Origin: Aurantimonas manganoxydans SI85-9A1
Lineage (GTDB): Bacteria; Pseudomonadota; Alphaproteobacteria; Rhizobiales; Rhizobiaceae
Assembly (NCBI RefSeq): GCF_000153465.1
Contig: NZ_CH672387.1
Coordinates: 2,953,903 to 3,017,902, forward strand
DNA: 64,000 bases
Reading direction: 5' to 3'
The position numbers were made by a program, and so were the translations under genes. The notes below the pieces were generated by a model. That model saw only the letters and a list, made by a program, of their open reading frames with translations. It was not told the origin of the DNA and searched no databases. Positions 37,459 through 59,053 of the stretch are shown here, one piece after another; position 1 is the stretch's first letter, and every line of letters begins with the position of its first letter.

Positions 37459-37622
37459 CTGGCACCCGTCCCTTCACTGCATCTGCCCCGCCCGGCGGGG
37501 TCCCTGCCCTTCTATGCGAGGAAGGAAAGCGCGGTCGAGATGCGATGCGTCCTGTTGGTTCGCAGCCCACACGACGGCGAAGAGACGTTGCCGCCGCCAG
37601 ACGCTTGGCGATAGATGGAGCG

Positions 37623-38559: not shown

Positions 38560-39402
38560 TCAGCTTCGATCGCCGGTCATGTCGGCATTCGGAAAGAACA
38601 GCTGCTGACCATCGACCCTGTAGTTCGCGATGGCCGCCTGCCCCTCTTCTCCGGTCAGCCAGTCGATGAAGGCCTGCCCTGCTTCGGCCTTGACCGCCGG
38701 ATGCCTGTCCGGGTTCACCAGGATCACGCCATACTGGTTGAACAGTTCCGGATCGCCCTCGACGACGACCGTGTGATCGCCCTTGTTGCCGAAGGAAATC
38801 CAGGTCGCGCGGTCGGTCAGGACGTAGGCGCCCATGCCGATTCCGGTGTTGAGCGTGGCGCCCATGCCCGATCCGGTTTCGCGGTACCAGCCGCCGGAGG
38901 CGGCGGCGAGGTCGATCCCGGCGTCCTTCCAGAGGCGCAATTCGGCCTTGTGGGTGCCGCTGTCGTCGCCGCGCGAGGCGAAGGGCGCCTTGGCGGCGGC
39001 GATCTTCCCGAGCGCCGCCTCGGCGTCTTTCATACCGGCGACACCGGCGGGATCGGCGGCCGGGCCGACGACGACGAAATCGTTGTACATCACGTCGAAG
39101 CGCTCGACGCCGCCGCCGGCCGCGACGAACTTCTCCTCGGCGGGCTTGGCGTGAACGAGCAGCACGTCGCCATCGCCATTCTCGGCGTTCTTGATCGCCT
39201 GGCCGGTCCCCACCGCGACGACGCGAACCTCGATGCCGGATTTTTCCGTGAAGGCCGGCAGGATGGCGTCCAGCAGCCCGGAATTCTGGGTGGAGGTCGT
39301 CGACTGGACGACGATGAAGTTCTCCTCGGCCGTCGCCGGAGCGACCATGGCGCCCAATGCCAGCGTGGCGGCGGCGATGGCCCCGATCAGTTGCGTCTTC
39401 AT
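38560..39402 (-). CDS. tupA: Tungstate ABC transporter substrate-binding protein TupA
   Basis: Periplasmic tungstate receptor, 280 residues. A signal peptide (AAATLALGAMVAPATAEE, cleavage near 25) is followed by FIVVQSTTSTQNSGLLDAIL, whose TTTSxxxSGL-type oxyanion loop separates TupA from the molybdate protein ModA. GTGQAIKNAENGDGDVLLVH and PFASRGDDSGTHKAELRLW with TGSGMGATLN are further ligand-loop segments, and ASRGDDSGTH is a second family mark. Last gene of tupB-tupC-tupA. ModA-type paralogues are not in the window. Confidence 0.94.
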   Translation of the reverse strand: MKTQLIGAIAAATLALGAMVAPATAEENFIVVQSTTSTQNSGLLDAILPAFTEKSGIEVRVVAVGTGQAIKNAENGDGDVLLVHAKPAEEKFVAAGGGVERFDVMYNDFVVVGPAADPAGVAGMKDAEAALGKIAAAKAPFASRGDDSGTHKAELRLWKDAGIDLAAASGGWYRETGSGMGATLNTGIGMGAYVLTDRATWISFGNKGDHTVVVEGDPELFNQYGVILVNPDRHPAVKAEAGQAFIDWLTGEEGQAAIANYRVDGQQLFFPNADMTGDRS

Positions 39403-39429: not shown

Positions 39430-40227
39430 TTACAGAACCAGTCCGCCGGCGAGAAACTGCCGCGCCGGCTGTGAGACGGGTTCATCGAAAAACCGGTCGA
39501 CCGGCGTCTGCTCGACGATGCGGCCACCGTGAACGAACACGATCTCGGCGGCCAGGCGTCGCGCCTGGCCGATGTCGTGGGTGACCATGACGATCTTGGT
39601 GCCGGCCGCCGCGACGCGGCGCAGCAGGCTCTCGATCGCCTGGGTCGCCCCCGGATCGAGGCTCGAGGTCGGCTCGTCCATGTACAGGATGTCGGGCGCG
39701 GTCGAGATCGCGCGGACCACCGCCAGCCGCTGCTGCTCGCCGCCCGAGAGCGTGCGCGCCGGCTGGTTGGCGCGGGCCGCCAGATCGCCCATGGCCAGAA
39801 GCGCAGCGACGCGTTCGCGGCGCGCGATGCGCGGCATGCCATGAACCTTCAGCGCGTAGTCGACATTGGCGGCGACGGAGCGGCGCAGCAGCACCGGCCG
39901 CTGGAACACCATGGCCTGACGCCGGCGCACAGCCTTGTCGAGACCCTGGCCACTGTAGCGCAACTGCCCGGAAGCCGGCGTGATCAGCCCGTGCAGCAAC
40001 CGCAGGAGCAGGCTCTTGCCGGCGCCGTTCGGCCCGAGAATCAGGGTGGGGCCACCGGCGGCGATGGTCAGTCCGCTAACGTCCAGCAGGGTCCGCCCCC
40101 CGGCCCGGAACACAAGATTCTCGGCCTGCAGCGGCAGGACCGAGGCCCGAGTCGTGCCGGCGTCCGGCAGCGCGCGCACCGGTGACAGGTCGGCGTCGCT
40201 GTGCAGCAGGGCGATATCGTCACGCAT
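39430..40227 (-). CDS. tupC: Tungstate ABC transporter ATP-binding protein TupC
   Basis: ATPase driving tungstate uptake, 265 residues. Walker A is GPNGAGKS, the Q-loop follows in MVFQRPVLLRRSVAANVDYA, the signature is LSGGEQQRLAVVRAI and Walker B is ILYMDEPTSSLD; the switch His is in VTHDIGQA. An N-terminal extension of about 30 residues (LHSDADLSPVRALPDAG) precedes the ABC core. There is no C-terminal TOBE domain of the kind ModC carries. It overlaps tupB by eight bases and lies 27 bases upstream of tupA. Confidence 0.93.
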   Translation of the reverse strand: MRDDIALLHSDADLSPVRALPDAGTTRASVLPLQAENLVFRAGGRTLLDVSGLTIAAGGPTLILGPNGAGKSLLLRLLHGLITPASGQLRYSGQGLDKAVRRRQAMVFQRPVLLRRSVAANVDYALKVHGMPRIARRERVAALLAMGDLAARANQPARTLSGGEQQRLAVVRAISTAPDILYMDEPTSSLDPGATQAIESLLRRVAAAGTKIVMVTHDIGQARRLAAEIVFVHGGRIVEQTPVDRFFDEPVSQPARQFLAGGLVL

Positions 40228-40927
40228 GGGCGGCCTGCGGGCGGTCGGCGCCGATGAGCCCGACCGACGCGTTGATGGCGATGGCGATGATCAGCAGGAT
40301 CGCGCCGAGCGCCAGGGCCAGCGACAGATTGCCCTTCGAGGTTTCCAGCGCCACCGCCGTCGTCATCACCCGGGTCACGTGGTTGATGTTGCCGCCGACG
40401 ATGATGACGGCGCCGACTTCGGCGATGGCCCGACCGAAGCCGGCCAGCAGCGCGGTGACGAGGCTGTGCCGCCCGTCCCAGAGCAGCGTCGGGACCGCCG
40501 CGAGGCGCGAGACGCCGAAGGAGCGGAGCTGCTCGGAATATTCGGCGTCGAGATCCTCGATCACCTGACGGGTCAGCGCGGCGATGATCGGGACCACCAG
40601 GACGACCTGCGCGATGATCATCGCGGTCGGCGTGTAGAGCAGCTGAAGCACGCCGAGCGGGCCGGCATTGGACAGCATCAGATAGACCAGCAGGCCGACC
40701 ACGACCGGCGGCAGCCCCATGAGCGCGTTCAGGAGCACGATGGCGAGGCGGCGCAGCGGGAACCGGCCGACGGCGAGGAGCGCACCGAGCGGCATTCCGA
40801 CCATTGCCGCAATGATCACCGCGGTCATCGAGACTCTGAGCGACAGCAGCACGATGGCCCACAATTCGGGATCCCCCGAGAGGATCAAACCGGCCGCCAA
40901 CGAAAATGCGTCTGCGAAATCCTGCAT
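40220..40927 (-). CDS. tupB: Tungstate ABC transporter permease TupB
   Basis: Inner-membrane channel of the tungstate importer, 235 residues with five or six hydrophobic segments (about 15-50, 60-85, 95-120, 155-175, 195-225). VSMTAVIIAAMVGMPLGALL and FGRAIAEVGAVIIVGGNINH contain the EAA-type coupling loop with the family's GGNI segment. First gene of the operon; the promoter with palindrome lies 41-69 bases upstream. Confidence 0.92.
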   Translation of the reverse strand: MQDFADAFSLAAGLILSGDPELWAIVLLSLRVSMTAVIIAAMVGMPLGALLAVGRFPLRRLAIVLLNALMGLPPVVVGLLVYLMLSNAGPLGVLQLLYTPTAMIIAQVVLVVPIIAALTRQVIEDLDAEYSEQLRSFGVSRLAAVPTLLWDGRHSLVTALLAGFGRAIAEVGAVIIVGGNINHVTRVMTTAVALETSKGNLSLALALGAILLIIAIAINASVGLIGADRPQAAHA

Positions 40928-41195: not shown

Positions 41196-41801
41196 TTGCA
41201 GAACCACAATCTCGCTGTAACGACGGAACCGGCCGAGGCCGAGGCCTTGCGCGCCAACCTCTACAGGTTGCTTGCGCGCCTTCTGGCGCGTCCGGCCGAC
41301 GAGGCGTTGCTGGCGATGCTGCAGGGCCTGTCCGGCGATGACAGCCCGCTCGGCCGGGGCATCGGCGATCTCGCCGGCGAGGCGCGCGCGATATCGCTCG
41401 GCGCGGCCCGCGAGGAATATCAGGAGTTGTTCATCGGCGTTGGGCGCGGCGAGCTCGTGCCCTACGGCTCCTACTACCTGACCGGATTTCTCAACGAAAA
41501 GCCGCTGGCGCGGCTGCGCTCCGACATGGTGCCGCTGGGCATCGCCCGCTCCGAGGACAGCCGCGACCCGGAGGATCACGCCGGCGCGCTGATGGAGATG
41601 ATGGCGGGGCTGATCGACGGCAGCTTCGGGCAGATCCAGCCGCTTGCGGTCCAGAAGGATTTCTTCCGCAAGCATGTCGGCTCCTGGGCCGGGCATTTCT
41701 TCGCGGATCTGGAGACCAACCGCTCGGCGCGGCTCTACCGCCCGGTCGGCACGATCGGCCGCCAGTTCATGGCCATCGAGGAATCGGGCTTCGACATGTA
41801 G
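41196..41801 (+). CDS. TorD/DmsD-family molybdoenzyme chaperone
   Basis: Cytoplasmic chaperone that guards the twin-arginine leader and helps cofactor insertion into the molybdoenzyme, here presumably FdhA. The 201 residues from TTG 41196 (GGGAGAACAGCC before it) are helical: EALRANLYRLLARLLARPAD, EEYQELFIGVGRGELVPYGS with YYLTGFLNEKPLARLR (the family's YxxLFxGxGxGxxxPxxS block), then DPEDHAGALMEMMAGLIDG, the E/DHxxxxLxxM motif, and CysHis-free C-terminus. It opens the fdh operon, divergent from tup. A longer frame from 41166 has no ribosome site. Confidence 0.87.
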   Translation: MQNHNLAVTTEPAEAEALRANLYRLLARLLARPADEALLAMLQGLSGDDSPLGRGIGDLAGEARAISLGAAREEYQELFIGVGRGELVPYGSYYLTGFLNEKPLARLRSDMVPLGIARSEDSRDPEDHAGALMEMMAGLIDGSFGQIQPLAVQKDFFRKHVGSWAGHFFADLETNRSARLYRPVGTIGRQFMAIEESGFDM

Positions 41802-41880
41802 CCGCACAATCCGCGGGGACGGCGGCACCCCGCAGAAAGAACGAGACCAGGGCACGGCCCTTCGACCACGGAGAAACGAG

Positions 41881-42090
41881 ATGAGCGACAAGAGCACGGG
41901 AATGAAGGGCGGCACGCAGGCCGATCGCCGGGCTTTCCTGAAGTTCGCAGGGCTGGGCGGCGTGGCCGGCGGCGCCGCGCTGGTCACCGGCGCACCCGCC
42001 GAAGCGGCAATCACCGAGGACGACACGGCGGGCGCGGGCTACCGCGAAACCGACCATGTCAGGACATTCTACAAGTCGGCACGGTTCTAA
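41881..42090 (+). CDS. Twin-arginine leader miniprotein of the fdh operon
   Basis: A 69-residue protein consisting almost only of a Tat signal: DRRAFLKFAGLGGVAGGAAL with a cleavage-like GAPAEA near 43, then 25 residues ending RTFYKSARF. The ATG at 41881 follows GGAGAAACGAG. Such genes recur beside formate dehydrogenases and are annotated as formate dehydrogenase region Tat-signal proteins. Role unknown; the DHVRTFYKSARF tail suggests a small periplasmic subunit or a leader decoy for the chaperone. Confidence 0.82.
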   Translation: MSDKSTGMKGGTQADRRAFLKFAGLGGVAGGAALVTGAPAEAAITEDDTAGAGYRETDHVRTFYKSARF

Positions 42091-42147
42091 CCCACCCGCC
42101 AGTCAAACGGATCGCGGGCGGCCGCACATCAAGGATCGGAGGCAGAT

Positions 42148-45138
42148 ATGCTCAGGAAAAAGGCAAACGGCGCGGCGCGGAGCAACCGGATGGCGTCGGC
42201 GCTGTCGGAGCTGGGGACGGCCGCGGTTGATCGCCGGACCTTCCTGAAGCGTTCGGGCCTGACCATCGGCGGTGCCGCGGCCGTGGCGACGCTGTCGGGC
42301 GGCATGGTGCGCCGCGCCGAGGCCGCGGGCGAGACCGCAACCGGCGAGATGGAAATCCGCAAGTCGGTCTGTACCCATTGCTCGGTCGGCTGCACGGTGC
42401 TGGCGGAAGTGTCGAACGGCGTCTGGGTCGGCCAGGAGCCGGGCTTCGATTCCCCGTTCAATCTCGGTGCTCACTGCGCCAAGGGCGCCTCGGTGCGTGA
42501 GCACGCCCATGGCGAGCGCCGCCTGAAGTACCCGATGAAGCTCGTCGGCGGAAAGTGGCAGCGCATCAGCTGGGACGAGGCGATCAACGAGATCGGCGAC
42601 AAGATGCTGGAGGTCCGCGAGGCCGCCGGTCCCGATTCCGTCTACTGGCTCGGCTCGGCCAAGCATTCCAACGAGCAGTCCTACCTGATCCGCAAGTTCG
42701 CCGCCTATTGGGGCACGAACAACATCGACCATCAGGCCCGGATCTGTCACTCCACCACGGTCGCAGGTGTTGCCAACACCTGGGGCTACGGCGCGATGAC
42801 CAATTCCTACAACGACATCCACAATTCCCGGGCGATCTTCCTGATCGGCGGCAATCCCGCCGAGGCGCATCCCGTCTCGCTGCTGCACCTGCTGAAGGCC
42901 AAGGAAGAGAACAACGCGCCGCTGATCGTCTGCGATCCGCGCTTCACGCGCACCGCGGCCCATGCCGACGAGTATGTGCGGTTCCGGCCGGGCACCGACG
43001 TCGCGCTGATCTGGGGCGTTCTCTACCACATCTTCGAGAATGGCTGGGAAGACAAGGAATTCATCAACAGCCGCGTCTGGGGCATGGACCAGATCCGCAC
43101 CGAGGTCGCGCGCTGGACGCCCGAGGAGGTCGAGCGGGTCACCGGCGTTCCGGGCTCGCAGCTCCAGCGCGTCGCACGGACCATGGCCGAGAGCCGTCCG
43201 GCGACGCTGATCTGGTGCATGGGCGGCACCCAGCACACCAATGGCAACAACAACACCCGCGCCTACTGCATCCTGCAGCTCGCTCTCGGCAACATGGGCA
43301 AGGCCGGCGGCGGCACCAACATCTTCCGCGGCCATGACAACGTGCAGGGCGCGACCGATCTGGGCGTCCTCGCCGACACGCTGCCGGGCTATTACGGCCT
43401 GACCGCCGGCTCCTGGGCGCACTGGGCCCGGGTCTGGGAAGAGGAACTCGACTGGCTCAAGGGCCGCTTTGCCGTGATGCCGGGCGCCGGCGACGAGGGC
43501 AAGGACCGCCTGATGATGAACGAGACCGGCATCCCGGTCTCGCGCTGGATCGACGGCGTCCTCGAGGCCAGGGAGAACCTCGAGCAGCCCGACAACACCA
43601 AGGTCATGGTGTTCTGGGGCCATGCGCCGAACTCGCAGACCCGCCTGCCGGAAATGCAGAAGGCGATGGGCATGCTGGAGATGCTGGTCGTCATCGACCC
43701 GTATCCGACCATGACCGCCGTCCTGCAGGACCGCACCGACGGCGTCTATCTGCTGCCGGCCTCCACGCAGTTCGAGACCTCCGGCTCGGTGACCGCGTCG
43801 AACCGGTCGCTGCAGTGGCGCGAGAAGGTGGTCGAGCCGCTGTTCGAGTCCCTGCCCGACCACACGATCATGCACAAATTCGCCGAGAAGTTCGGCTTCG
43901 CGGACCGCATGTTCCGCAACATCGAGGTCAAGGACGGCGAGCCGGTCGTCGAGGACATCACCCGCGAGTTCAACCGCGGCATGTGGACGATCGGCTATAC
44001 CGGCCAGTCGCCGGAGCGCATGAAGTCGCACATGCAGAACCAGCACACGTTCGACAGGACGACGCTGCGCGGCGTCGGCGGCGCGCATGACGGCGAGTTC
44101 TACGGCATGCCCTGGCCGTGCTGGGGCACCGCCGAGATGAAGCACAGCGGCTCGGCCAATCTCTATGACACCTCGATCCCGGTGGCGCAGGGCGGCATGG
44201 GCTTCCGCGCCCGCTTCGGCGTCGAGCGTGACGGCGACAACCTTCTGGCCGAGGGCTCCTGGCCGGTCGGCTCGGAGATCGAGGACGGCTATCCCGAGTT
44301 CACCTTCGCCATGCTCAAGGAGCTCGGCTGGGACAAGGACCTGACGCCCTACGAGCGCCGCTACATCGATTACGTGGCCGGCTTCGCCGACCAGCGTCCG
44401 AACCAGGGCGACGACGTCGGCGAGCAGTCGCAGACCGGCGAGATCGATTCCGACTACGACGAGAAGGTCGGCGGCGTGAACTGGAAGACCGACCTGTCGG
44501 GCGGCATCCAGCGCGTGGCGATCGCCCATGGCTGCGCCCCCTACGGCAACGCCAAGGCCCGCGCCGTGGTCTGGACCTTCCCCGATCCGGTGCCGATCCA
44601 TCGCGAGCCGCTCTACACGCCGCGCCGCGATCTGGTGACGGATTATCCGACCTATGAAGACAAAACCTTCTGGCGCGTGCCAACGGCCTACGCCTCGATC
44701 CAGAAGAACGACTATTCCAAGGACTTCCCGATGATCATGACGTCGGGGCGTCTGGTGGAATACGAGGGCGGCGGCGACGAGACCCGCTCCAATCCGTGGC
44801 TCGCCGAGCTGCAGCAGGACATGTTCGTCGAGATCAATCCGTCGGACGCCAACGATCTCGGTCTTCGCGACCGCGACACGGTGTGGCTGCACAGCCCGGA
44901 AGGCGGCAAGATCCGTATCATGGCTATGGTCACCGAACGCGTCGGTCGCGGCGTGGTGTTCACGCCCTTCCACTTTGGCGGCTACTTCCAGGGCAACGAT
45001 CTGCGCGGGAAATATCCCGATGGCGCCGATCCCTACGTGCTCGGCGAAGCCTGCAACACGGCACAGACATACGGCTACGATTCGGTGACGCAGATGCAGG
45101 AAACCAAGACCACGCTCTGCCGGATCGAACGGGCGTAA
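42148..45138 (+). CDS. fdhA: Formate dehydrogenase catalytic subunit alpha (Cys type)
   Basis: Mo/W-bis-pterin enzyme oxidising formate to CO2 in the periplasm. The 996 residues carry a Tat signal (DRRTFLKRSGL, RR at 29-30), one [4Fe-4S] site (C75, C78, C82, C110) and the metal ligand at C200 in ARICHSTTVAGVANTWGYGA, followed by the catalytic His201. Formate dehydrogenases with selenium have Sec there; this one has Cys, and no UGA is read. CMGGTQHTNGNNNTRA and the C-terminal GRLVEYEGGGDETRSNPWLA belong to the cofactor-binding domains. Neighbouring tungstate uptake suggests W, which sequence cannot prove. fdhB and fdhC follow directly. Confidence 0.96.
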   Translation: MLRKKANGAARSNRMASALSELGTAAVDRRTFLKRSGLTIGGAAAVATLSGGMVRRAEAAGETATGEMEIRKSVCTHCSVGCTVLAEVSNGVWVGQEPGFDSPFNLGAHCAKGASVREHAHGERRLKYPMKLVGGKWQRISWDEAINEIGDKMLEVREAAGPDSVYWLGSAKHSNEQSYLIRKFAAYWGTNNIDHQARICHSTTVAGVANTWGYGAMTNSYNDIHNSRAIFLIGGNPAEAHPVSLLHLLKAKEENNAPLIVCDPRFTRTAAHADEYVRFRPGTDVALIWGVLYHIFENGWEDKEFINSRVWGMDQIRTEVARWTPEEVERVTGVPGSQLQRVARTMAESRPATLIWCMGGTQHTNGNNNTRAYCILQLALGNMGKAGGGTNIFRGHDNVQGATDLGVLADTLPGYYGLTAGSWAHWARVWEEELDWLKGRFAVMPGAGDEGKDRLMMNETGIPVSRWIDGVLEARENLEQPDNTKVMVFWGHAPNSQTRLPEMQKAMGMLEMLVVIDPYPTMTAVLQDRTDGVYLLPASTQFETSGSVTASNRSLQWREKVVEPLFESLPDHTIMHKFAEKFGFADRMFRNIEVKDGEPVVEDITREFNRGMWTIGYTGQSPERMKSHMQNQHTFDRTTLRGVGGAHDGEFYGMPWPCWGTAEMKHSGSANLYDTSIPVAQGGMGFRARFGVERDGDNLLAEGSWPVGSEIEDGYPEFTFAMLKELGWDKDLTPYERRYIDYVAGFADQRPNQGDDVGEQSQTGEIDSDYDEKVGGVNWKTDLSGGIQRVAIAHGCAPYGNAKARAVVWTFPDPVPIHREPLYTPRRDLVTDYPTYEDKTFWRVPTAYASIQKNDYSKDFPMIMTSGRLVEYEGGGDETRSNPWLAELQQDMFVEINPSDANDLGLRDRDTVWLHSPEGGKIRIMAMVTERVGRGVVFTPFHFGGYFQGNDLRGKYPDGADPYVLGEACNTAQTYGYDSVTQMQETKTTLCRIERA

Positions 45139-45153
45139 GGGAGGATCAGACCA

Positions 45154-45750
45154 ATGGCACGAATGAAGTTCCTCTGCGACGCCGAGCGCTGCATCGAATG
45201 CAACGCCTGCGTGACCGCCTGCAAGAACGAGCACGAGGTTCCGTGGGGCGTGAACCGCCGGCGCGTCGTCACCATCAATGACGGCAAGCCGGGCGAGCGG
45301 TCGATCTCGGTCGCCTGCATGCACTGCTCCGACGCACCCTGCATGGCGGTCTGCCCGGTGGACTGCTTCTACCAGACCTCCGACGGCGTGGTTCTCCACT
45401 CCAAGGATCTGTGCATCGGCTGCGGCTATTGCTTCTACGCCTGCCCCTTCGGCGCGCCGCAATATCCGCAGGCGTCGAATTTCGGTTCGCGCGGCAAGAT
45501 GGACAAGTGCACCTTCTGCGCCGGCGGTCCGGAAGAGGACAATTCGGCGGTGGAGTTCCAGAAATACGGCCGCAACCGTCTGGCCGAGGGCAAGCTGCCG
45601 CTGTGCGCCGAGATGTGCTCAACCAAGGCGCTTCTCGCCGGCGACGGCGACACGGTGTCGTCGATCTACCGCGAGCGCGTCGTGGCCCGTGGCTTCGGCG
45701 CCGGCGCCTGGGGCTGGGGCACCGCCTACGACCAGAAGCTGGGCGGCTGA
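45154..45750 (+). CDS. fdhB: Formate dehydrogenase iron-sulfur subunit beta
   Basis: Electron-transfer subunit between FdhA and the cytochrome b, 198 residues. Sixteen cysteines make four [4Fe-4S] sites: C13/C16/C19/C23, C55/C58/C63/C67, C87/C90/C93/C97 and C119/C122/C151/C155. [20 protein letters not shown] and [19 protein letters not shown] are classical. There is no C-terminal transmembrane anchor of the kind FdnH has, so attachment must come from FdhC. It starts 15 bases after fdhA with AAGGGAGGATC. Confidence 0.96.
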
Positions 45751-45868
45751 CCCAGCCGCGCATGCAATTCCGGCGGACGGCTCCGGCCGTTTGCCGCCTG
45801 ACGATGACCGGTGGCGCACCGCGTTGCCCATTCCCGCCGCATCTTTCACCCGAACGGGGATAGAGGAC

Positions 45869-47044
45869 ATGCCTAGCCTCAGAGCGTCTCTCGCTGTCTT
45901 GTCACGCTCCGCCCCGCTACGGCGTCTCGCAGCTCTCGTGCCGGTCCTCGCCATCGCCGTCCTGATGCTGTTCGCCGCAGCCGGCTCCAGCCACGCCCAG
46001 AGCTCGGTCCGGCCGCCGGACAATGCCTCGCCGACCGGCGGCGCCGTTCCGGGCGACGCGCTCGGCACCACCTCCGACGCCGAGATATGGCGGTCGGTGC
46101 GCCAGGGCATTTCCGGCGGCGTCTCGATCCCCGACAAGAAGGCCTCGGTGCTGGTGCAGTCCGAGGGCGAGTCCTGGCGCCTTCTGCGCAACGGTCCGAT
46201 GTTCGACTATCTCGGACTGGCGATGATCGGCATGCTGGTCCTCCTCGCCGTGTTCTTCGCCGTTCGCGGCCGCATCCGCGTCCAGCACGGTCTTGCCGGC
46301 GTCACCATCAAGCGCTTCGGCCTGATCGAGCGCACCGCCCATTGGGTGATGGCCCTGTCCTTCATCATCCTCGCCATCAGCGGGCTGAACATCTCCTACG
46401 GCCGCGAGCTGATCATGCCGCTGATCGGCAAGGAGCTCTTCGGCCCGATGTCCGGCTTCCTGAAGATGTCGCACAACTACGTGGCCTTCGCCTTCATGGC
46501 CGGGCTGGTGGTCGCCTTCGTCCTGTGGATCGTCCACAACCTTCCGTCGCGCACCGACTTCGTCTGGCTGATGAAGGGCGGCGGCTTCTTCTCCAAGGGC
46601 GCGCATCCGCCGGCCTGGAAGTTCAACGCCGGACAGAAGGTCATCTTCTGGCTGGTGATGATCGGCGGCCTGTCGCTCAGCGTCTCGGGCTGGGCGCTGC
46701 TGTTCCCGTTCGAGCACGGCTTCTTCGGCGACACCTTCACCGCCCTTGCCGGCATCGGCCTCGACGTGCCGGCCTGGCTCGGCCTGCCGCAACCGCCCTA
46801 TTCGGTGATCCAGGAGCAGCAGTTCAACACCATCTGGCACGCCGTCATGGCGGTGTTCATGGTCTGCGTGATCTTCGGCCACATCTATATCGGCACGATC
46901 GGCATGGAAGGCGCCTTCGACGCCATGGGCAGCGGCGACGTCGATCTGAACTGGGCGCGCGAGCATCATGCGCTCTGGGTGGACGAGGTCCTGAAGAAAG
47001 ATGGTCGCCCCGAGGCCGGGGCGCATCCCGCACCCGCGGAATAG
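45869..47044 (+). CDS. fdhC: Formate dehydrogenase cytochrome b556 subunit gamma
   Basis: Membrane anchor passing formate electrons to quinone, 391 residues. A signal peptide (to about SSHA, 43) and a periplasmic stretch of about 65 residues precede four membrane helices at about 113-132, 156-175, 200-224 and 257-281, with a later one at 322-345. Heme-ligand candidates are H158 (ERTAHWVMALSF), H202 (KMSHNYVAFAF), H324 (NTIWHAVMAVF) and H338 (IFGHIYIGTIGMEGAFDAM), the usual FdnI-type set. The N-terminal extension is longer than that of E. coli FdnI. Start ATG 45869 follows GATAGAGGAC. Confidence 0.92.
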   Translation: MPSLRASLAVLSRSAPLRRLAALVPVLAIAVLMLFAAAGSSHAQSSVRPPDNASPTGGAVPGDALGTTSDAEIWRSVRQGISGGVSIPDKKASVLVQSEGESWRLLRNGPMFDYLGLAMIGMLVLLAVFFAVRGRIRVQHGLAGVTIKRFGLIERTAHWVMALSFIILAISGLNISYGRELIMPLIGKELFGPMSGFLKMSHNYVAFAFMAGLVVAFVLWIVHNLPSRTDFVWLMKGGGFFSKGAHPPAWKFNAGQKVIFWLVMIGGLSLSVSGWALLFPFEHGFFGDTFTALAGIGLDVPAWLGLPQPPYSVIQEQQFNTIWHAVMAVFMVCVIFGHIYIGTIGMEGAFDAMGSGDVDLNWAREHHALWVDEVLKKDGRPEAGAHPAPAE

Positions 47045-47063
47045 CGGCCGGCGTGACGCGATC

Positions 47064-48467
47064 ATGCGCCCCGCTTTGAGACTGGCGGCGCTCGCCGCCG
47101 GCGCAATCCTCGCGATGCTGTCGAACCCGGCCGGCGCAGACGCGCTGCCGGAGCGGCTGGTCGGCCACGGCGGCCCGGTGAAGGCGGTCGCGTTGTCCGA
47201 TGACGGCACCCGCGCGCTGACCGCCTCCTTCGACTATTCGATCATCCTCTGGGACATGACCGGCCCGGACGGCACCGTCGCCACCCAGCTCGCCGGCCAC
47301 GACGCGGCGGTCAACGACGTCGCGTTCGTCCCCGGCACGGACAAGGCTGTCTCGGTCTCCGACGACGGCTCCTTCGCCATCTGGGATCTTGCGACCGGCG
47401 ACCTCGAACAGCGGATCGCCGATACGCCGGTCAAGGTGCTCGACGTCGCCGTCAGCCCGGACGGCCGCTTTGCCGCAGCCGCGCGCTGGGACGGCACGGC
47501 GCGGATCTTCGACATTGCGGAGGGCCGCGAGATCGCGCGCGCCGAGGGCCATCAGGGCAATGTCAACGCGGTCGCCTTCGCGCTGGACGGACGGCAATTG
47601 TTCACCGCCGGCTATGACGGCGCGATCCGTGCTTGGCCGCTCGACGACGGTCGCATCGCCGGTTCGTCGCGGGTGCTCTACACCCATGGCTGGGGCGTCA
47701 ACGTCATCACCCCCCTGCCCGGCGGCACCCTGCTCGCCTTCGGCAGCCAGAACGGCGTGACCGGTCTCGTCGACCTGCCGACGCTGGAAACCGTGGAACT
47801 CGCCGCGAAAGAGAACCCGGTTCTATCGATCGCGGTGTCACCGCGGGCCGGATGGTTCGCCACTGGCAGCGCCGACGGGCGCATCCGGGTCTTCGACATC
47901 GAGACCGGCACGCTGGTCGAGGAATATGGCGACGTCTATGGCCCGGTCTGGGGGCTGTCCTTCACGCCGGACGGCAAGGAGCTCTACCGGGTCGGGCTCG
48001 ACGATTTCGCCATTCGCTGGCAGGTCTCGCCGCGCCGGCGCATGGAGGCGATCCAGTCGGTCTATCCGCGGCGGTTCCAGGCGCATGGCACGGACGATCC
48101 CGGCGAAAGCGAGTTCCTGCGCAAATGTTCGGTCTGCCATACGCTGACGCCGGATGACGGCAACCGCGCCGGGCCGACGCTGTTCGGCCTGTTCGGGCGC
48201 AAGGCCGGCACCGTTCCGGGCTATCCCTATTCGAAGGCGCTGACGGAATCGGATATCGTCTGGACCGAGGACACGGTATCACAGCTCTTCGACCATGGAC
48301 CCGACGTCGTGACGCCGGGCACGAAGATGCCCGTGCAGCGGCTGAAGAGCGTCGAACGGCGCGACGCGCTGATTGCCTATCTGAAGCGGGCGACCGCAAC
48401 CGATGCCGAAACGCCGCCGCCAAGCGGGCGACCGGCACCAGAACCGGGGGAGACCACACGACAATGA
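47064..48467 (+). CDS. Periplasmic WD40-cytochrome c fusion protein
   Basis: Secreted redox protein of 467 residues from ATG 47064. After a signal peptide (cleavage near PAGADA, 26) come about seven WD40-like repeats (30-320), e.g. GHGGPVKAVALSDDGTRAL, SFDYSIILWDM and GSADGRIRVFDIETG. They are followed by a class-I cytochrome c domain (345-445) with heme site CSVCH (C355, C358, H359), RAGPTLFGLFGRKAG and axial Met422 in GTKMPVQR. It could take electrons from, or dock on, the formate dehydrogenase; the propeller may be the binding platform. It lies 19 bases after fdhC, and its stop overlaps a 42-residue gene. Confidence 0.88.
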   Translation: MRPALRLAALAAGAILAMLSNPAGADALPERLVGHGGPVKAVALSDDGTRALTASFDYSIILWDMTGPDGTVATQLAGHDAAVNDVAFVPGTDKAVSVSDDGSFAIWDLATGDLEQRIADTPVKVLDVAVSPDGRFAAAARWDGTARIFDIAEGREIARAEGHQGNVNAVAFALDGRQLFTAGYDGAIRAWPLDDGRIAGSSRVLYTHGWGVNVITPLPGGTLLAFGSQNGVTGLVDLPTLETVELAAKENPVLSIAVSPRAGWFATGSADGRIRVFDIETGTLVEEYGDVYGPVWGLSFTPDGKELYRVGLDDFAIRWQVSPRRRMEAIQSVYPRRFQAHGTDDPGESEFLRKCSVCHTLTPDDGNRAGPTLFGLFGRKAGTVPGYPYSKALTESDIVWTEDTVSQLFDHGPDVVTPGTKMPVQRLKSVERRDALIAYLKRATATDAETPPPSGRPAPEPGETTRQ

Positions 48468-48592
48468 AGGCATTCCTGCTAAGCGTGGCCATCGTGCTGG
48501 TCATCGGGCTGGGCGTCGGCCTCTTGCTCAACACCGAGCTGGAACAATCGGCGAGCGAAGCCTATTCGACCGAGAACGTCCGGCTGCAATAG
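48464..48592 (+). CDS. 42-residue single-span membrane protein in the fdh operon
   Basis: A short gene with sequence MKAFLLSVAIVLVIGLGVGL at its start, one transmembrane helix (about 4-23), then a polar tail LEQSASEAYSTENVRLQ. The ATG overlaps the stop of the WD40-cytochrome gene (ATGA), and GGGGGAG lies upstream, so translation is coupled. No family is known to me. It may be a small subunit or stabiliser of the membrane-bound dehydrogenase. Confidence 0.7.
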   Translation: MKAFLLSVAIVLVIGLGVGLLLNTELEQSASEAYSTENVRLQ

Positions 48593-48717
48593 GCCCGATC
48601 GACCGCCCACGCACACGTGGCGGGACGCGGCGGCACGGCGCCTTCACACGCCCGGTGCGAGACGGATCATCACGCGGAGCGCGACCGGCGGCACCGCGAC
48701 AGCAAGGAACAGGACCG

Positions 48718-48909
48718 ATGAGCGAAGAAGCCTTCAACATGTCACTGCGCAAGTTTCTCAAGCAGGTCGGCGTGACCTCGCAGCGCGAGATCGAGGAACT
48801 GGTGCGCTCCGGCAAGGCCGGCTCCGGCCCCCTGAAGGTGCGCATGCATCTGACCGCCGAGGGTGAGCCGCTGGACCATGTCGTCGAGGGTGAAATCCAG
48901 CTGCCGTGA
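48718..48909 (+). CDS. DUF6494 family protein
   Basis: Cytoplasmic-looking 63-residue protein starting MSEEAFNMSLRKFLKQVGVT with SQREIEELVRSGKAGSGPLK and a final strand GEPLDHVVEGEIQLP. This matches the DUF6494 pattern (N-M-S-x-R-K-F-L-K, S-Q-R-E-I-E). Function is not known; it is found in metabolism loci of alpha- and betaproteobacteria. A 125-base gap precedes it, and its stop overlaps the next start (GTGA). Confidence 0.8.
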   Translation: MSEEAFNMSLRKFLKQVGVTSQREIEELVRSGKAGSGPLKVRMHLTAEGEPLDHVVEGEIQLP

Positions 48910-49673
48910 CGCTCAGCCAGATCGACATCGCGCCCCTGGCGGACCCCGAATTCCCGCCCGCCTTCACCGGTCACCCGGTGGCTGCGGGCGTCGACCCCTT
49001 CGCGGCGGCGATCGAAGCCGCGCGCGCGCAATCCCATGGCGCGGGCGATCTGTTCTGGAGCCGCGACACGGACTGCGCCGCGGCCGCGCTGATCCTGGAG
49101 CCGGACGTCGCGCTCGCCAAGGCCGCGCAGATGCTGCCGCTCCTGATGGTGGCGATCGGCGACGCGTTGGGCGGCATCGGACCGCCCAATCTGGCGCTGA
49201 CCTTCCGCTGGCCCGGCACGATCCTCGCCAATGGCGCGACCGTCGGCGCCGTGCGCCTCCATGTTCCCGGACCGCGCGATCCGGCCGGGATCCCCGACCA
49301 CATGGTCGTCGGCTACGCACTGACCATCGAGGCGTCGCGGAACGGGCCCGCCGAACCGGGCCACGACCTGGCCGCGACCGCGCTGATGGAAGAAGGCTGC
49401 GGCGAACTCGACCGCACCCTCATCGTCGAGGCGGTGGCGCGCCATTTCCTGTCGTGGATCGACGGATGGACCCATGACGGGTTCCGTGCCGCGCATCAGA
49501 GCTGGACGTCCCGCGCCGATGCGATGGGCGAAACCGTGGACATCGTCCTCGACGGTGTCCGGCATTCCGGCACCATGATCGGCCTCGACGACGCCGGCGG
49601 GGCCCTGTTGAAGACCGACGGGCGCACGGTGCTGCTGCCCCTGACCGATGCCGCAAGCGGAGCCGATTCCTGA
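48906..49673 (+). CDS. Biotin/lipoate protein ligase-like protein lacking catalytic residues
   Basis: A 255-residue member of the biotin/lipoyl ligase fold with a DUF4444-type C-terminal domain. GAGDLFWSRDTDCAAAALIL corresponds to the start of the ligase barrel, ALTFRWPGTILANGATVGAV to the WPND...RKLAGI active-site segment of BirA. In it the Asp of WPND is Thr and the catalytic Lys is absent; no GRGRRG-like adenylate loop is seen either. So it probably cannot make an acyl adenylate and may bind a small molecule or protein instead. The start is a GTG overlapping the DUF6494 stop; the next ATG overlaps its own stop (TGATG). Confidence 0.75.
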   Translation: MTLSQIDIAPLADPEFPPAFTGHPVAAGVDPFAAAIEAARAQSHGAGDLFWSRDTDCAAAALILEPDVALAKAAQMLPLLMVAIGDALGGIGPPNLALTFRWPGTILANGATVGAVRLHVPGPRDPAGIPDHMVVGYALTIEASRNGPAEPGHDLAATALMEEGCGELDRTLIVEAVARHFLSWIDGWTHDGFRAAHQSWTSRADAMGETVDIVLDGVRHSGTMIGLDDAGGALLKTDGRTVLLPLTDAASGADS

Positions 49674-50722
49674 TGCAGATGCCTGCGAAACCCCTCGCGC
49701 TACAGGGCCGTGTCGTCTGGAAATCCGCCGGCCTGCATCTGACCCACAAGCTGGACAATGGCTGGCTCGCGGTCACGCCGGATTTCCTGCGCGCCTACTA
49801 CACCCGGCCGGAAATCCACCCGATCGAGGAAAGCTGCGACAACGAGCACCGGTTGTTCGAGCGGCTGATGGAGACGCCCGACGCGACGGTCACCGAGGCC
49901 GATCTGGCGGCGCTGGCCGATGCCGACACGGCGGACAATTACCGCATGCTGCTGGCCTATCGCGACCACCTCCTGCGGCACGGCTCCATCGAGGCCGGCT
50001 ATCTCGCCCTGTTCCGCCCGGATGCACCGCGCGTGCCGCCGGTCTTCATCGAGCAGCTGGTCCATCTGATCCTGGGCGGGCTTCTGGCCCACGAGACCGA
50101 CCCCTTCGTCCTGCGCGCCGCCGAACTGTTCTTCCGTGACCAGATGGCGACGACGGGCGATGGCCAGCTGACGCTGGCCGATGCGGAAGTGGTCGAGATG
50201 TATTCGGAATCCGGCGGCCTCGGCGGGCTGGGCTCGCTTCTGGCCGAAGCCGGCACGCCGATGCGCGAAGTCTCACTCGACGTTTTGAGCGAGGAGAATT
50301 GCGAGACCTATTGGGGCCGGGCCGACCAGTTCAATTTCGCCCTCGATTTCCGCTTCACCCAGCCGGGGCAGGATGCGCTGGCGCGGGTGATCGAACGCTG
50401 GGTCGCGCATTTCCTGCATCTGCCGGTGCGGGTCCAGGCGATGCAGTCGATCACCGACCAGCACTGGTCCTGGCATGTCGGGCTCGACGCCGAGGCAACG
50501 CAGATCCTGAACGGCCTTTACGAGGGCGAAACGGTCGACGAGGACCGCATCGGCCGGATAGCCGCGCTGTTCCGCATGGAGTTCAAGGACGACGACCGGA
50601 TCCTGCCGACCATGCGGGGCAAGCCGGCCTATCTCGGCGTGGCAGTGAATCCCACCGGTCTCATCCGGCTGAAGCCCCAGAACCTTCTGACCAATCTGCC
50701 CCTCACCTCCGGCGTCCAATGA
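49673..50722 (+). CDS. DUF6352 family protein
   Basis: A 349-residue soluble protein with no recognised catalytic motif. Notable segments are AYYTRPEIHPIEESCDNEHR, LAYRDHLLRHGSIEAGYLAL, FIEQLVHLILGG, VVEMYSESGGLGGLGSLL and ITDQHWSWHVGLDAEATQIL, which together match the DUF6352 family. His and Asp residues in HPIEESCDNEHR and DQHWSWHVGLD could bind metal. It is co-translated with the ligase-like gene, and in my recollection this family is found with formate dehydrogenases. Confidence 0.78.
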   Translation: MQMPAKPLALQGRVVWKSAGLHLTHKLDNGWLAVTPDFLRAYYTRPEIHPIEESCDNEHRLFERLMETPDATVTEADLAALADADTADNYRMLLAYRDHLLRHGSIEAGYLALFRPDAPRVPPVFIEQLVHLILGGLLAHETDPFVLRAAELFFRDQMATTGDGQLTLADAEVVEMYSESGGLGGLGSLLAEAGTPMREVSLDVLSEENCETYWGRADQFNFALDFRFTQPGQDALARVIERWVAHFLHLPVRVQAMQSITDQHWSWHVGLDAEATQILNGLYEGETVDEDRIGRIAALFRMEFKDDDRILPTMRGKPAYLGVAVNPTGLIRLKPQNLLTNLPLTSGVQ

Positions 50723-50735
50723 TCAAGGAATCGAC

Positions 50736-51035
50736 ATGACGACTTCATCACACAGCGTCGCGAACTCCCCCTGGATGCGCCTCGTGGCGCTAGTCTTCGC
50801 GATCGCCCTCGCCGCTCTTGCCTTCCTCGTCTATGTCCAGACCGAAGAATGGGTGGCCGGTGTCCAGGAGCGGGGCGAGGAGCTCGGCACGCTGCGGGTC
50901 GACCCCGACGTCGCGGCCTGCATGGACAAGCGCTTCGCCGACATCGACGTCATGGTCCAGCAGGATCTGATCACCGCTGAGGCCGCGGAGAAGTCGCGCG
51001 CCGACGCGCGCTCCCTCTGCTACCAGCGCAACTGA
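50736..51035 (+). CDS. Single-span membrane protein at the end of the fdh operon
   Basis: A 99-residue protein with one transmembrane helix (about 15-34: RLVALVFAIALAALAFLVYV) and a periplasmic or cytoplasmic tail of 65 mostly charged residues that holds two cysteines (ACMDKRF and SLCYQRN), possibly a disulfide. No family recognised. It lies 13 bases after the DUF6352 gene and converges on the polyferredoxin gene with only three bases between stops. Confidence 0.75.
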   Translation: MTTSSHSVANSPWMRLVALVFAIALAALAFLVYVQTEEWVAGVQERGEELGTLRVDPDVAACMDKRFADIDVMVQQDLITAEAAEKSRADARSLCYQRN

Positions 51036-51038: not shown

Positions 51039-53081
51039 TCAATCGGTGGTGAGGAAGTCGTCGACCGTCAGGCCGCGCCGGCCGGCTTCCAGATAGTCGT
51101 CGGTGGTGCGGACCTTGGGGCGCTGGGCGATGGCGAAGGGGTCGCCGCCGTCCGCCGCCAGAGCTTCCAGCCGGCAGCTCTCGCACATGTGCAAAAGCGC
51201 CACCCGCTCCTCGGTCTGGAACATCCAGTGCTTGCCGCCGAGCGTTTCCCTGACCCGGTCGAGCATGCCGCGCGCGGCGAAGGGCTTGCCGCAGCAGGTG
51301 CATTCGGCCGGCTCGTCCTCGTTCAGCGTCACCGGCTGCATTACTGTCGGCGCCAGATTGTAGCGTGGGTCGAGCGTGATCGCGGTTTCCGGACAAGTCG
51401 CGGCACAGATGCCGCACTGGACGCAGGCCGCCTCCACGAAGCGCAGTTCCGGCTTGCCCGGCGTATCGCGCAGGGCGTCGGCCGGACAGGCCGAGACGCA
51501 GGCCATGCAGAGCGTGCAGCGTTCCTTGTCGACGAGAATGTTGCCGTAGGGGGCCGAGGCCGGCAGGCGGATCAGATCGTCGCCCGGGCCTGAACCGGCG
51601 GCCGCGGCGACGGCGATGCCGGCGCGCGCCACCTCGCGCTTGCCGCCGACCGGCGCGAACGCCGTGCGGGCGATCTCGGCAGCCTCCTGCCGGTCGTACA
51701 GCAGCGCCTCGACGATTTCCGGATCGGGCTCGGCGACGATCCGCACCCGGTCGGGCGCATGGCCGAGCCCGGTGAGCAGTGCCTCGGTCAGCCCGATTTC
51801 CTCGTGCAGCGCGTGCAGTTCGCCCGATTTGCGCGGATCGACCAGGACCACCAGCGAGCGGAAGCCGGCGGCCAGCGCCGCGACGATCAGGTCGTGGCCG
51901 AGCGCCGTCGTCGAATGCATCTCCAGCGGAATGACATTGGCCGGCAGGCCGCGGCCGAAGCGGGCCATGGCGTTGATCAGCGATGCGCCATGCTCGCGCT
52001 CATGCACCATCAGCACGGGCGCCACGCCGCCGGCGGCCAGATAGGTGCGGGCCAGCGTCTGCACCCGTTCGATCGACTGGGCACGGGCCGGATAGTCGTA
52101 GGAGACCGCGCCGGTCGGGCAATGGGCGGCGCAATTGCCGCAGCCGCCGCAGATCGCCGTGTCGATCAGGATGTTGTCGCCGTCGGGCGAGATCGCGCTG
52201 GGCGGGCAATTGTCGATGCACTTGGTGCAGCCGGTCTTCTTCGACCGCTCATGGGCGCAGATCGACGCGTCGTAGCTGACATAGATGGGCTTTTCGAACT
52301 CGCCCTCGTAGCCGCTGGCGTCGAAGACGCCCCGCATGACCGCCGCCGGATCGGCGGGATCGGCGCGGAAATAGCCGTCGCGACCGGTCGGGCGGGCGAA
52401 CAGCGGCGCGTTGCCGGTCATGTCGAAGAGGACGCTGCAGGACGATTTGGCGCCGTTGCGCGGCAGGGCGAATTGCGGCTCGCCGCGCGACGAGGGCAGC
52501 ATGCCGGCGTAATCGTCGACGACGATGTCGAAACCGCCGAGCGTGCCGGTGGCAGAAACCACCCGGCCGCGGAAGACCGGGAAGTCGAGCACCTCGGGCA
52601 GCAGGATATCTTCGGCATCGGTCAAGAGCAGCGTGACCGACAGCGTGCGGTTGAGCAGCGCCGCGGCGTCCAGCGCCGCCTGCCCCCGACCGGTCACCAG
52701 GCACAGTCCGTCGCTTTCGATGGCGCGCAGCCGGGCCGGCGCTACCGGCAGCGAGGCCGCGCCGATCAGCGCCGCCATCTTCGGCGCGATCGACGCCTTG
52801 TCGGCGGTCCATCCGGCCATTTCGCGGATGTTGACGAAGGCGGAAACCTCGCGGCCCTTCTCCTCGGCGATCTCGGCGAAGAGCGGGCTCTCCTGGGTAC
52901 AGGCGACGACCACGGGCGCGTCGCCCTCCATCGCGCCTTCGAAGGTGCCGATCTGGCTGCGGCAAAGATGCGTGTGAACCGGCAGCTCCGCGCCGCCGAG
53001 GGCATGGCCGATCGCCTTGCCGTCCACCCGCATGGTCTTCTCGCAGTTGCAGACCAGAATCCGTTGGCTCGTCGCGCTCAT
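51039..53081 (-). CDS. Multi-cluster ferredoxin-type protein of the fdh island
   Basis: A 680-residue cytoplasmic Fe-S protein. Four [4Fe-4S] motifs can be read: C275/C285/C288/C292 (with a widened first gap), C311/C314/C317/C321, C522/C525/C528/C532 and C553/C556/C559/C563. CNCEK (11-13), ECTCCG (594-597) and CESC (633-636) add further thiol sites. Regions 1-250 and 330-500 resemble HdrA/CoB-disulfide-type scaffolds without a flavin motif. Such a protein could carry electrons from the dehydrogenase or supply them for sulfur transfer or cluster repair. It is divergent from the DUF3305 gene and convergent to the main fdh operon. Confidence 0.82.
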   Translation of the reverse strand: MSATSQRILVCNCEKTMRVDGKAIGHALGGAELPVHTHLCRSQIGTFEGAMEGDAPVVVACTQESPLFAEIAEEKGREVSAFVNIREMAGWTADKASIAPKMAALIGAASLPVAPARLRAIESDGLCLVTGRGQAALDAAALLNRTLSVTLLLTDAEDILLPEVLDFPVFRGRVVSATGTLGGFDIVVDDYAGMLPSSRGEPQFALPRNGAKSSCSVLFDMTGNAPLFARPTGRDGYFRADPADPAAVMRGVFDASGYEGEFEKPIYVSYDASICAHERSKKTGCTKCIDNCPPSAISPDGDNILIDTAICGGCGNCAAHCPTGAVSYDYPARAQSIERVQTLARTYLAAGGVAPVLMVHEREHGASLINAMARFGRGLPANVIPLEMHSTTALGHDLIVAALAAGFRSLVVLVDPRKSGELHALHEEIGLTEALLTGLGHAPDRVRIVAEPDPEIVEALLYDRQEAAEIARTAFAPVGGKREVARAGIAVAAAAGSGPGDDLIRLPASAPYGNILVDKERCTLCMACVSACPADALRDTPGKPELRFVEAACVQCGICAATCPETAITLDPRYNLAPTVMQPVTLNEDEPAECTCCGKPFAARGMLDRVRETLGGKHWMFQTEERVALLHMCESCRLEALAADGGDPFAIAQRPKVRTTDDYLEAGRRGLTVDDFLTTD

Positions 53082-53170: not shown

Positions 53171-53719
53171 TTGGCCCGTGAACTGACGATCATGCTGGGT
53201 GTTCTGGCCGAGCGGCGCCGATCCGTCTCGCGCTGGGCGAAGGAGTACTGGATCCCGGTGGGAATCGCCCCGGCATCCGGAGGCCTGACCACCGGCGACG
53301 TGATGCTGAGCGACGACGAGCGGACGCGCTATTTCATGGGCGTGCATGCGCTCACCTGCCACGCGGCCGACACCGAGGCCTATGTGCACAATTTCAACAG
53401 TCAGGTGCCGGCACTGTTCATCGTGCTGCGCCGCTCCCCGTCGGAAGATGGCCACCCGCTGCCGTGGTTCGTCCATAGCGTCACCGCCTCGCCCTATCTC
53501 GCGCAGGATTACGACGACAGCGGCGAAGACATCGTCGAGCGCGTCCCGATGCCTCCGGACATCACCGAGACGCTCAAGGACTTCGTGAACCGCTATCACC
53601 AGGAAGAGGAATTCAAGAAGCGGCGGCGCGACAAGCTGGATCTCAAGGACCACAAATTCGGCAAGGACCCGATCTTCCTGCAGCGCGAGAAGCCGGCCGG
53701 AGGAAATCTCGATGGCTGA
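53171..53719 (+). CDS. DUF3305 domain-containing protein
   Basis: A soluble protein of about 182 residues; MLGVLAERRRSVSRWAKEYW followed by IPVGIAP is the DUF3305 N-terminal block, and VPALFIVLRRSPSEDGHPLP with HSVTASPYLAQDY the core; the C-terminus is charged (KKRRRDKLDLKDHKFGKD). Function unknown; the family occurs with DUF3306 beside formate dehydrogenases. The start is uncertain: TTG 53171 has AAAGGTG before it, ATG 53192 has none, and the 53099 ATG adds foreign cysteines. Confidence 0.78.
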   Translation: MARELTIMLGVLAERRRSVSRWAKEYWIPVGIAPASGGLTTGDVMLSDDERTRYFMGVHALTCHAADTEAYVHNFNSQVPALFIVLRRSPSEDGHPLPWFVHSVTASPYLAQDYDDSGEDIVERVPMPPDITETLKDFVNRYHQEEEFKKRRRDKLDLKDHKFGKDPIFLQREKPAGGNLDG

Positions 53720-58434: not shown

Positions 58435-59053
58435 CATTGCCGCGCCGATCGGCGTGATCCTCGCAGGTGGCCTTGCCCGACGCATGGGCGGCGGCGACAA
58501 GCCGATGCGCACCATTGCCGGCCGGCCGATTCTCGCCCATGTGATCCACCGCTTCGCGCCGCAATGCGCCGGGGTGATCCTCAATGCCAATGGCGATCCG
58601 GAGCGGTTCTCCGGCTTCGACCTGCCGGTGGTGGCGGACAATGTCGAGGGCCATCCCGGCCCCCTCGCCGGCATCCTCGCGGCGCTCGACTGGACGGCGG
58701 AACACCGGCCCGATGCGAAGTGGGTCGTCAGCGTCGCCGGAGACTGCCCGTTCCTGCCACGCGATCTCGTGGCGCGGCTGGGTGCAGCGCGCGATGCCGA
58801 GGACGCCGACCTTGCCGTCGCCGCGTCGGGCGAGCGCACCCATCCGCCCATCGGCCTGTGGAAGGTCGCCCTGCGCGGCGCCCTTCGCGAGGCGCTGGTC
58901 GGCGAGGAACTGCGCAAGATCGATCGCTGGACGGCACGCTACAGGCTGGCGACCGTCTCCTGGCCGGCCGAGCCGGTCGACCCGTTCTTCAATGCCAATA
59001 CGGTGGAGGATCTCGCCGACGCCGAGGCGCTGGCGCAGCAGACCGCCGACTGA
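58424..59053 (+). CDS. mobA: Molybdenum cofactor guanylyltransferase MobA
   Basis: Adds GMP to the Mo/W-pterin to make the guanine dinucleotide cofactor used by formate dehydrogenases, 209 residues. [20 protein letters not shown] is the nucleotide-binding start (LAGGxxRRMGGxDK), [20 protein letters not shown] the second motif, [15 protein letters not shown] the metal-binding region, and [20 protein letters not shown] the product-binding end. It overlaps fdhD and converges on the MoeA-fusion gene. Confidence 0.95.

Follow-up and report, generated by a model that had tools for sequence, protein, structure and literature searches.

The genes fdhABC of Aurantimonas manganoxydans SI85-9A1 lie on a 64,000 nucleotide (nt) stretch of contig NZ_CH672387.1 (hereafter the window; all positions are relative to it) and encode a formate dehydrogenase (FDH) of the FDH3 type. 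Comparison with other genomes supports the view that the genes around them represent an FDH3 accessory module, a set of partners that is recurrent but not fixed. Our overall reading, to which we give even chances, is that the enzyme reduces quinone and is additionally served by a periplasmic cytochrome side-branch, that a 42 amino acid (aa) membrane protein, here called p42, would be a small subunit and that further partners would act as maturation factors. An earlier note on this DNA had listed fdhABC, a WD40-cytochrome c fusion, the 42-residue protein, DUF6494, a ligase-like protein, DUF6352 and a one-span membrane protein, several of them joined by overlapping start and stop codons, and had proposed a fixed accessory module. 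All of these genes were recovered where it placed them and three overlaps can be read directly from the sequence (4 nt at 48464-48467, 4 nt at 48906-48909 and 1 nt at 49673). The association with FDH3 recurred when 20 genomes carrying the enzyme were compared to 122 without it, but "fixed" proved too strong a word because order, content and the fusion of WD40 and cytochrome differ between loci.

The assignment to FDH3 follows from FdhB (45154-45750, + strand), which is 198 aa long and reaches 347.7 bits with the FDH3 beta subunit model NF038355 at a cut-off of 240. By sequence the closest solved structure for both FdhA and FdhB is 9VAP, with 1398 bits over nearly the full length of FdhA (9vap_A) and 335 bits for FdhB (9vap_B). 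FdhA (42148-45138, +) starts with a twin-arginine N-terminus (DRRTFLK) and carries one [4Fe-4S] motif as well as the active site pair Cys200-His201. Each residue of this pair is kept in 95% or more of the 62 copies aligned, and the fetched FdhA copies comprise 46 distinct ones as judged by their last 35 residues. FdhC (45869-47044, +) is a b-type cytochrome membrane subunit (PF01292) matching E. coli FdnI (1kqf_C, E 4e-18). Its His158, His202, His324 and His338 are located in membrane segments, and in an alignment of 78 copies each of them is retained in 95% or more. From what is known of FdnI, we take these to be the ligands of two b haems. With all four membrane histidines conserved, the quinone route therefore looks intact, and formate oxidation is the predicted activity of FdhABC.

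We assessed the co-occurrence of the partners with FDH3 in a class set of 142 genomes, one or two per family, which is broad yet shares descent. Genomes with an FDH3_beta match above the NF038355 cut-off were scored FDH3-positive (20/142), including G001, where the gene is split over two contigs; in the fragmented genomes G007, G071 and G127 the absence of FDH3-beta may be a false negative. DUF3305 was found in all 20 positive genomes and in 3 of the 122 others, DUF6352 in 17/20 and 3/122, p42 in 16/20 and 2/122 (E < 1e-10). The WD40-cytochrome was present in 16/20 and 0/122, counted by best match at E < 1e-30 with split (G087, G128) and interrupted (G105) genes included and G044 (E 2e-26) excluded. 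PF16917, the family of the ligase-like protein, was found at 100 bits or more in 14/20 against 2/122; when weaker matches down to E <= 0.001 are counted as well, it occurs in 94 of the 142 genomes. G071 and G127, which are exceptions for DUF6352, DUF3305 and PF16917 alike, carry an fdhA that is truncated at a contig end (L033, L032). In the third DUF6352 exception, G007, the contig starts 25 bases upstream of p42, and the third for DUF3305 is G125, a genome without FDH3-beta. In G125 (L042) DUF3305, DUF3306, MobA, FdhD and the 4Fe-4S protein are grouped beside a 1044-aa protein, the genome having no FDH3-beta match above the cut-off.

Within 22 fetched FDH3 loci, two being the separated halves of a single cluster and another a fragment of 4.8 kb, DUF3305 and DUF3306 were each found 19 times, p42 and the WD40-cytochrome 16 times each (L010 with WD40 only), the 4Fe-4S protein 15 times, DUF6352 and the ligase-like gene 11 times each and DUF6494 10 times. 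A phylum set of 284 genomes contains 37 FDH3-positive and 247 FDH3-negative members and shares the FDH3 carriers G000, G022, G028 and G107 with the class set. Here p42 (E <= 1e-4) was detected in 22/284 genomes, all of them among the 37, and a full-length WD40-cytochrome (E < 1e-138) in 15, again all FDH3-positive; neither was found in any of the 247 FDH3-negative genomes. Below these, the WD40-cytochrome search of the phylum set gave partial matches to WD40 regions, located in proteins that are larger or of a different kind, the strongest at E 2e-70. The earlier note had suggested co-occurrence analysis as a check and expected its idea to fail if the partners occurred mostly without fdhA. DUF6352, DUF3305, p42 and the WD40-cytochrome did not occur in this way, and DUF3305 and DUF6352 accompany FDH3-beta as proposed, while DUF6494 departs from the expected pattern; DUF3306 is represented by its counts in the fetched loci. 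DUF3305 and DUF3306, which that note had named for the check, sit beyond the coordinates it covered, at about 53.2-54.5 kb.

The WD40-cytochrome c (47064-48467, +) was characterized by family matches, alignment and a predicted structure with a mean predicted local distance difference test (pLDDT) score of 90.2. The model starts with a signal-like N-terminal helix, which points to a periplasmic location, followed by 28 strands that form seven blades; a weaker linker then leads to the cytochrome domain, which is helical. In a Foldseek search its propeller matched WD40 proteins. CxxCH is present, and C355, C358, H359, P418, G419, K421, M422 and P423 are invariant in 53 sequences. The cytochrome domain is of class-I type (Cys355-Cys358-His359, Met422), and among solved structures it is matched best by electron-carrier cytochromes c. 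At least 587 relatives occur in named genomes. In the best 80 of these, which were retained as named loci, fdhA, fdhB or fdhC adjoins the WD40-cytochrome 75 times; the loci were selected by WD40-cytochrome similarity and 34/80 end at contig ends, so that partner counts in them are lower bounds. Clusters similar to that of the window occur among them in Roseibium and Stappia strains. The idea that FDH3 requires the cytochrome as a subunit was rejected, many FDH3 clusters being without it. An electron route through the cytochrome is compatible with the data, with the physical complex and the transfer itself putative. In L004 (G105) the WD40-cytochrome frame is broken into two open reading frames (ORFs), and p42 was not found in that cluster. 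L095 (WNWL01000006.1), titled Oceanobacillus, holds an FDH3 cluster of the alphaproteobacterial kind and is possibly a mislabelled or mixed assembly. The viral contigs scanned for the WD40-cytochrome contained no relative.

The p42 gene (48464-48592, +) encodes a protein with one hydrophobic span and a C-terminal NVRL motif. The window copy matched no Pfam family at E <= 0.01. In an alignment of 18 rows Met1 and Leu22 are invariant and the Arg of the C-terminal VRL/VRV is nearly so, and the ORF is kept in other FDH3 clusters with conserved start and VRL/VRV motif. Changes at codon positions 1/2/3 amount to 155/112/208 in 9 equal-length pairs from 12 copies, a modest excess at position 3, counted without a control. 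The profile was built from FDH3 loci and from the WD40-cytochrome loci of G007 and G127. It showed a sharp gap in E-value in the class search, from 8e-11 to 7e-4, and 18 of the 19 strong class matches are rows of the profile itself; the independent evidence is provided by the phylum set, where 18 of the 22 positive genomes were new to the profile. At the class threshold p42 was not found in G105, G001 and G064, the assemblies of G001 and G064 being broken at this place.

A second FDH3 cluster is located in the same genome (L002, G000:C1:3126000-3145900). It holds DUF3305, DUF6352, the 4Fe-4S protein, DUF3306, TorD, FdhABC and p42; the WD40-cytochrome, DUF6494 and the ligase-like gene were not found in the fetched L002 stretch.

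DUF6352 (49673-50722, +; PF19879, E 2.3e-76) gave a confident predicted fold with a mean pLDDT of 91.0. In the PDB, Foldseek found nothing similar to the model at E <= 0.001; the best E was 1.4 and TM-scores did not exceed 0.19. A profile search against solved structures gave nothing significant (best E 0.083). DUF6352 may represent a new fold, an absent PDB match being no proof of it. No signal peptide was seen in its sequence, and it is therefore read as cytoplasmic. The preceding ligase-like gene (48906-49673, +; PF16917, E 1.2e-67) encodes a biotin/lipoate-ligase-like protein whose single solved relative at the cut-off is 3BFM (3bfm_A, E 2.1e-34), titled as of unknown function. GRGRxG, which we take to be the nucleotide loop of biotin and lipoate ligases, was absent from all 41 copies, those of 40 named loci and that of the window, and the protein is probably no ligase. 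Other FDH3 clusters have a DUF6505 gene (PF20115; L032:6284-6922, L019:10810-11352) placed between those for the ligase-like protein and DUF6352; the window has no room for it there. The one-span protein (50736-51035, +) has two Cys separated by about 33 residues in 21/21 named copies. It was detected in 5/142 class genomes at E <= 0.001 and by iterated profile in 21/80 named loci.

DUF6494 (48718-48909, +; PF20104, E 1.2e-27) behaves differently from the other partners proposed by the earlier note. As an FDH-specific protein it was rejected, with 15/20 FDH3-beta-positive against 10/122 negative class genomes and with copies near succinate dehydrogenase (sdh) genes. Twelve copies were fetched apart from FDH3 and DUF6352 (L024, L029, L030, L034-L041, L051); for L024, L029, L030 and L034 the genome carries FDH3 or its fdhA at another place. 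Half of the twelve (L024, L029, L034, L036, L037, L038) are near sdh genes. In L036 Pfam identified Sdh_cyt and SdhB-like members along with a protein of succinyl-CoA ligase type, and in L034 a malate dehydrogenase. This neighborhood hints at a broader role of DUF6494.

Upstream of fdhA the window encodes a TorD/NarJ-type chaperone (Nitrate_red_del, 41196-41801, +, start uncertain; PF02613, E 2.9e-26) and a formate dehydrogenase region twin-arginine translocation (Tat) target (formate_TAT, 41878-42090, +; TIGR02811, 55.0 bits at a cut-off of 48.45). Downstream of the one-span protein there are a 680-aa multi-[4Fe-4S] protein (51039-53081, -; Pfam Fer4 families), DUF3305 (53177-53719, +; PF11749, E 1.8e-34), DUF3306 (53712-54467, +; PF11748, E 2.6e-24), the FdhD sulfurtransferase (57583-58434, +; PF02634, E 6e-73) and MobA (58424-59053, +; TIGR02665 above cut-off). 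The window MobA also matches, below the cut-off, the NCBIfam model NF011058 named "MobA, DUF3305 domain-containing". The remaining conserved proteins are most simply taken as candidate maturation factors; this model name points in that direction, as does the fact that TorD, FdhD and MobA are often found with them.

With regard to the metal, tupA-like genes are found in 9/22 fetched FDH3 loci. The window contains genes for a TupA-like tungstate-binding protein (38560-39402, -; NF041772, E 1.8e-63), a TupC-like ABC ATPase (39430-40227, -), which has generic ABC ATPase matches and sits between tupA and tupB, and a TupB-like permease (40220-40927, -; NF041773, E 9.5e-49, below cut-off; NF038017 above cut-off). 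The tupA-like genes in the FDH3 loci, together with the tungsten-containing relative 9VAP, suggest that the FdhA cofactor is probably a tungsten bis-molybdopterin guanine dinucleotide (bis-MGD).

Taken together, the following mechanism can be proposed. FdhA, exported by Tat and with a Cys ligand to a probable tungsten bis-MGD, would oxidise formate in the periplasm. Electrons would pass from the one [4Fe-4S] cluster of FdhA to the clusters of FdhB and on to FdhC, whose two b haems would reduce quinone. In this lineage a dedicated monohaem WD40-cytochrome c would dock on the periplasmic side and give electrons another way out, into the cytochrome c pool. With its single span, p42 would belong to the membrane part as a small subunit or an anchor. 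The maturation of cofactor-loaded FdhAB would fall to TorD, the Tat-target protein, DUF3305/3306, the 4Fe-4S protein, the ligase-like protein and DUF6352, and the tup, mob and fdhD genes would supply metal, MGD and sulfur. Gene identities, co-occurrence and the candidate haem and cofactor residues come from the sequence; the tungsten, the cytochrome branch, the p42 subunit and the maturation roles are what we infer from it. A more far-reaching version appears rather doubtful to us: a branched FDH3 of alphaproteobacteria in which an FdhABC-p42 complex of four or more subunits would deliver electrons to quinone and, via the WD40-tethered cytochrome c, directly to cytochrome c oxidase, so that aerobes could oxidise formate without bc1, p42 being an undescribed subunit and DUF6352 a maturation factor of new fold.

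Several observations weigh against the proposed mechanism. Fisher values for the co-occurrences are very small, but the genomes are related by descent and independence is thereby overstated. DUF6494 also occurs in genomes without FDH3. Both p42 and a full-length WD40-cytochrome are missing from 15 of the 37 FDH3-positive phylum genomes, therefore neither is required for FDH3 as such. One p42 (G051:C3:543207, L144) lies in a 17-kb stretch without FDH3 genes, and 5/80 named WD40-cytochrome loci, all gammaproteobacterial, have no FDH gene in the fetched flanks, which is the range the FDH search covered. Finally, TupA (214 vs 400 bits) and TupB stay under their equivalog cut-offs, so the metal may be either tungsten or molybdenum. 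The five loci without FDH genes in their flanks (L096, L097, L098, L102, L105) belong to three Candidatus Thiodiazotropha records, one Stewartia symbiont and one Chromatiales; in L096, L097, L098 and L102, the four with upstream sequence, a 321-328-aa gene precedes the WD40-cytochrome and was assigned to the dienelactone hydrolase family in both cases scanned.

Other explanations were weighed as well. The WD40-cytochrome might stand off the main path, its propeller acting as a redox sensor or as a platform for assembly or docking, while all productive flux runs from FdhC to quinone. FdhC indeed retains its conserved histidines, there are FDH3 clusters without the cytochrome, including the second copy in this genome, and WD40 and cytochrome c are encoded by separate genes in L008, L020, L031 and L047. 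However, the domain is a well-kept class-I cytochrome resembling electron carriers, and its fusion or adjacency to the propeller is kept in many loci, so we consider this explanation possible but on the unlikely side. A similar, limited probability is given to the idea that p42 belongs with the periplasmic cytochrome, as its anchor or partner, and not with FdhABC. In loci chosen by that cytochrome, p42 follows it in 58/59 placed named copies, 18 of them with a 4-nt overlap (two more copies, whose start was not assignable, were left out), and in the split loci p42 comes after the separate cytochrome c gene. On the other hand, p42 lies directly 3' of fdhC in L145 and L155 (4-nt overlaps) and within a few bases of it in L146, clusters from genomes in which no full-length WD40-cytochrome was found, and it is kept in L002, where the only CxxCH ORF in the fetched stretch is the 4Fe-4S protein. 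Because it is kept with fdhC where the cytochrome is missing, p42 is most simply read as a candidate subunit or anchor of the membrane part.

A more general objection is that this is an ordinary FDH3 with hitch-hiking neighbors in a shared molybdo-enzyme island, where tight spacing merely reflects compact packing. Gene order and content do differ between loci, DUF6494 is found without FDH3, and DUF6352 lies apart from FDH3 in G028, G051 and G128 and on another contig in G087, G105 and G135. Yet all six genomes with such separated DUF6352 copies are FDH3-positive, and p42 and the full-length WD40-cytochrome were found in none of the 247 FDH3-negative phylum genomes; we regard hitch-hiking as improbable.

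Parts of the system resemble known enzymes. E. coli FdnGHI (1KQF) shares the periplasm-facing alpha-beta unit and the cytochrome b gamma subunit, FdhC matching FdnI, while the window cluster adds a c-type cytochrome and accessory genes. Presumably it also differs in the C-terminal membrane helix of FdnH, which we take to be absent from the 198-aa FDH3 beta subunit, and in the active site ligand, presumably selenocysteine in E. coli against Cys in the window FdhA. 9VAP is the FdhAB of Shewanella oneidensis, described in a 2026 review as completely oxygen tolerant with a Cys-W site and with one [4Fe-4S] cluster in FdhA and four in FdhB (PMC13397495). It has in common with the window FdhA over nearly the full length, FdhB, the Cys active site and an FDH3-like beta subunit; the match comprises FdhA and FdhB only. 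Section 2.4.3 of that paper, on Shewanella FdhAB, makes no mention of a WD40-cytochrome, p42 or DUF6352 (PMC13397495). FdhABC3 of sulfate reducers likewise resides in the periplasm and has a c-type cytochrome of its own, but this is a tetrahaem subunit and there is no integral membrane subunit, in contrast to the monohaem WD40 fusion and FdhC of the window (PMC13397495). Part of the window module has already been described in torD/dmsD-linked fdhGHI operons with fdh-tat, DUF3305, DUF3306 and fer4; the part of that account bearing on these operons does not mention the WD40-cytochrome, p42, DUF6494, DUF6352 or the ligase-like gene (PMC4464133). 3BFM, biotin protein ligase-like and of unknown function, belongs to the same family as the window ligase-like protein, and the co-occurrence of this family with FDH3 is new relative to it. 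As far as its text bears on the subject, PMC10308882 treats other formate dehydrogenases, those of Pseudomonas putida. In the open-access papers searched no mention of DUF6352, DUF6494 or DUF6505 was found, nor, among the matches listed, a relevant paper pairing formate dehydrogenase with a WD40 or beta-propeller protein; subscription literature was outside the scope of both searches.

Oxygen-tolerant formate dehydrogenases are of interest for CO2 reduction, and the maturation of the FDH3 type is largely unassigned. From the co-occurrence data a small number of proteins emerge as candidate maturation factors, together with two that may be additional subunits, and DUF6352 may have a new fold that goes with a single enzyme. 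The cytochrome branch, if true, would provide a formate oxidiser with a route around quinone and bc1.

Further genes lie on both sides of fdhABC. MobB (36934-37458, -; TIGR00176, E 1.8e-51, above cut-off) is followed by a protein with HTH_17 and PBP_like domains (37545-38513, +; PF12728, PF12727), a probable oxyanion-responsive regulator whose gene adjoins the tup genes here and in L052-L055. An Mrp/ApbC-type Fe-S carrier is encoded at 54890-56050 (+; PF10609, E 5.1e-104; NF008669, 346.5 bits, just under the cut-off of 348). Three MoeA-type genes are clustered at 56124-57380, 59057-61138 and 61015-62133, one of them fused to a PBP domain; apart from the gene at 56124-57380 they were assigned by Pfam scan. 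The presence of several MoeA types together may be linked to the handling of both molybdenum and tungsten.

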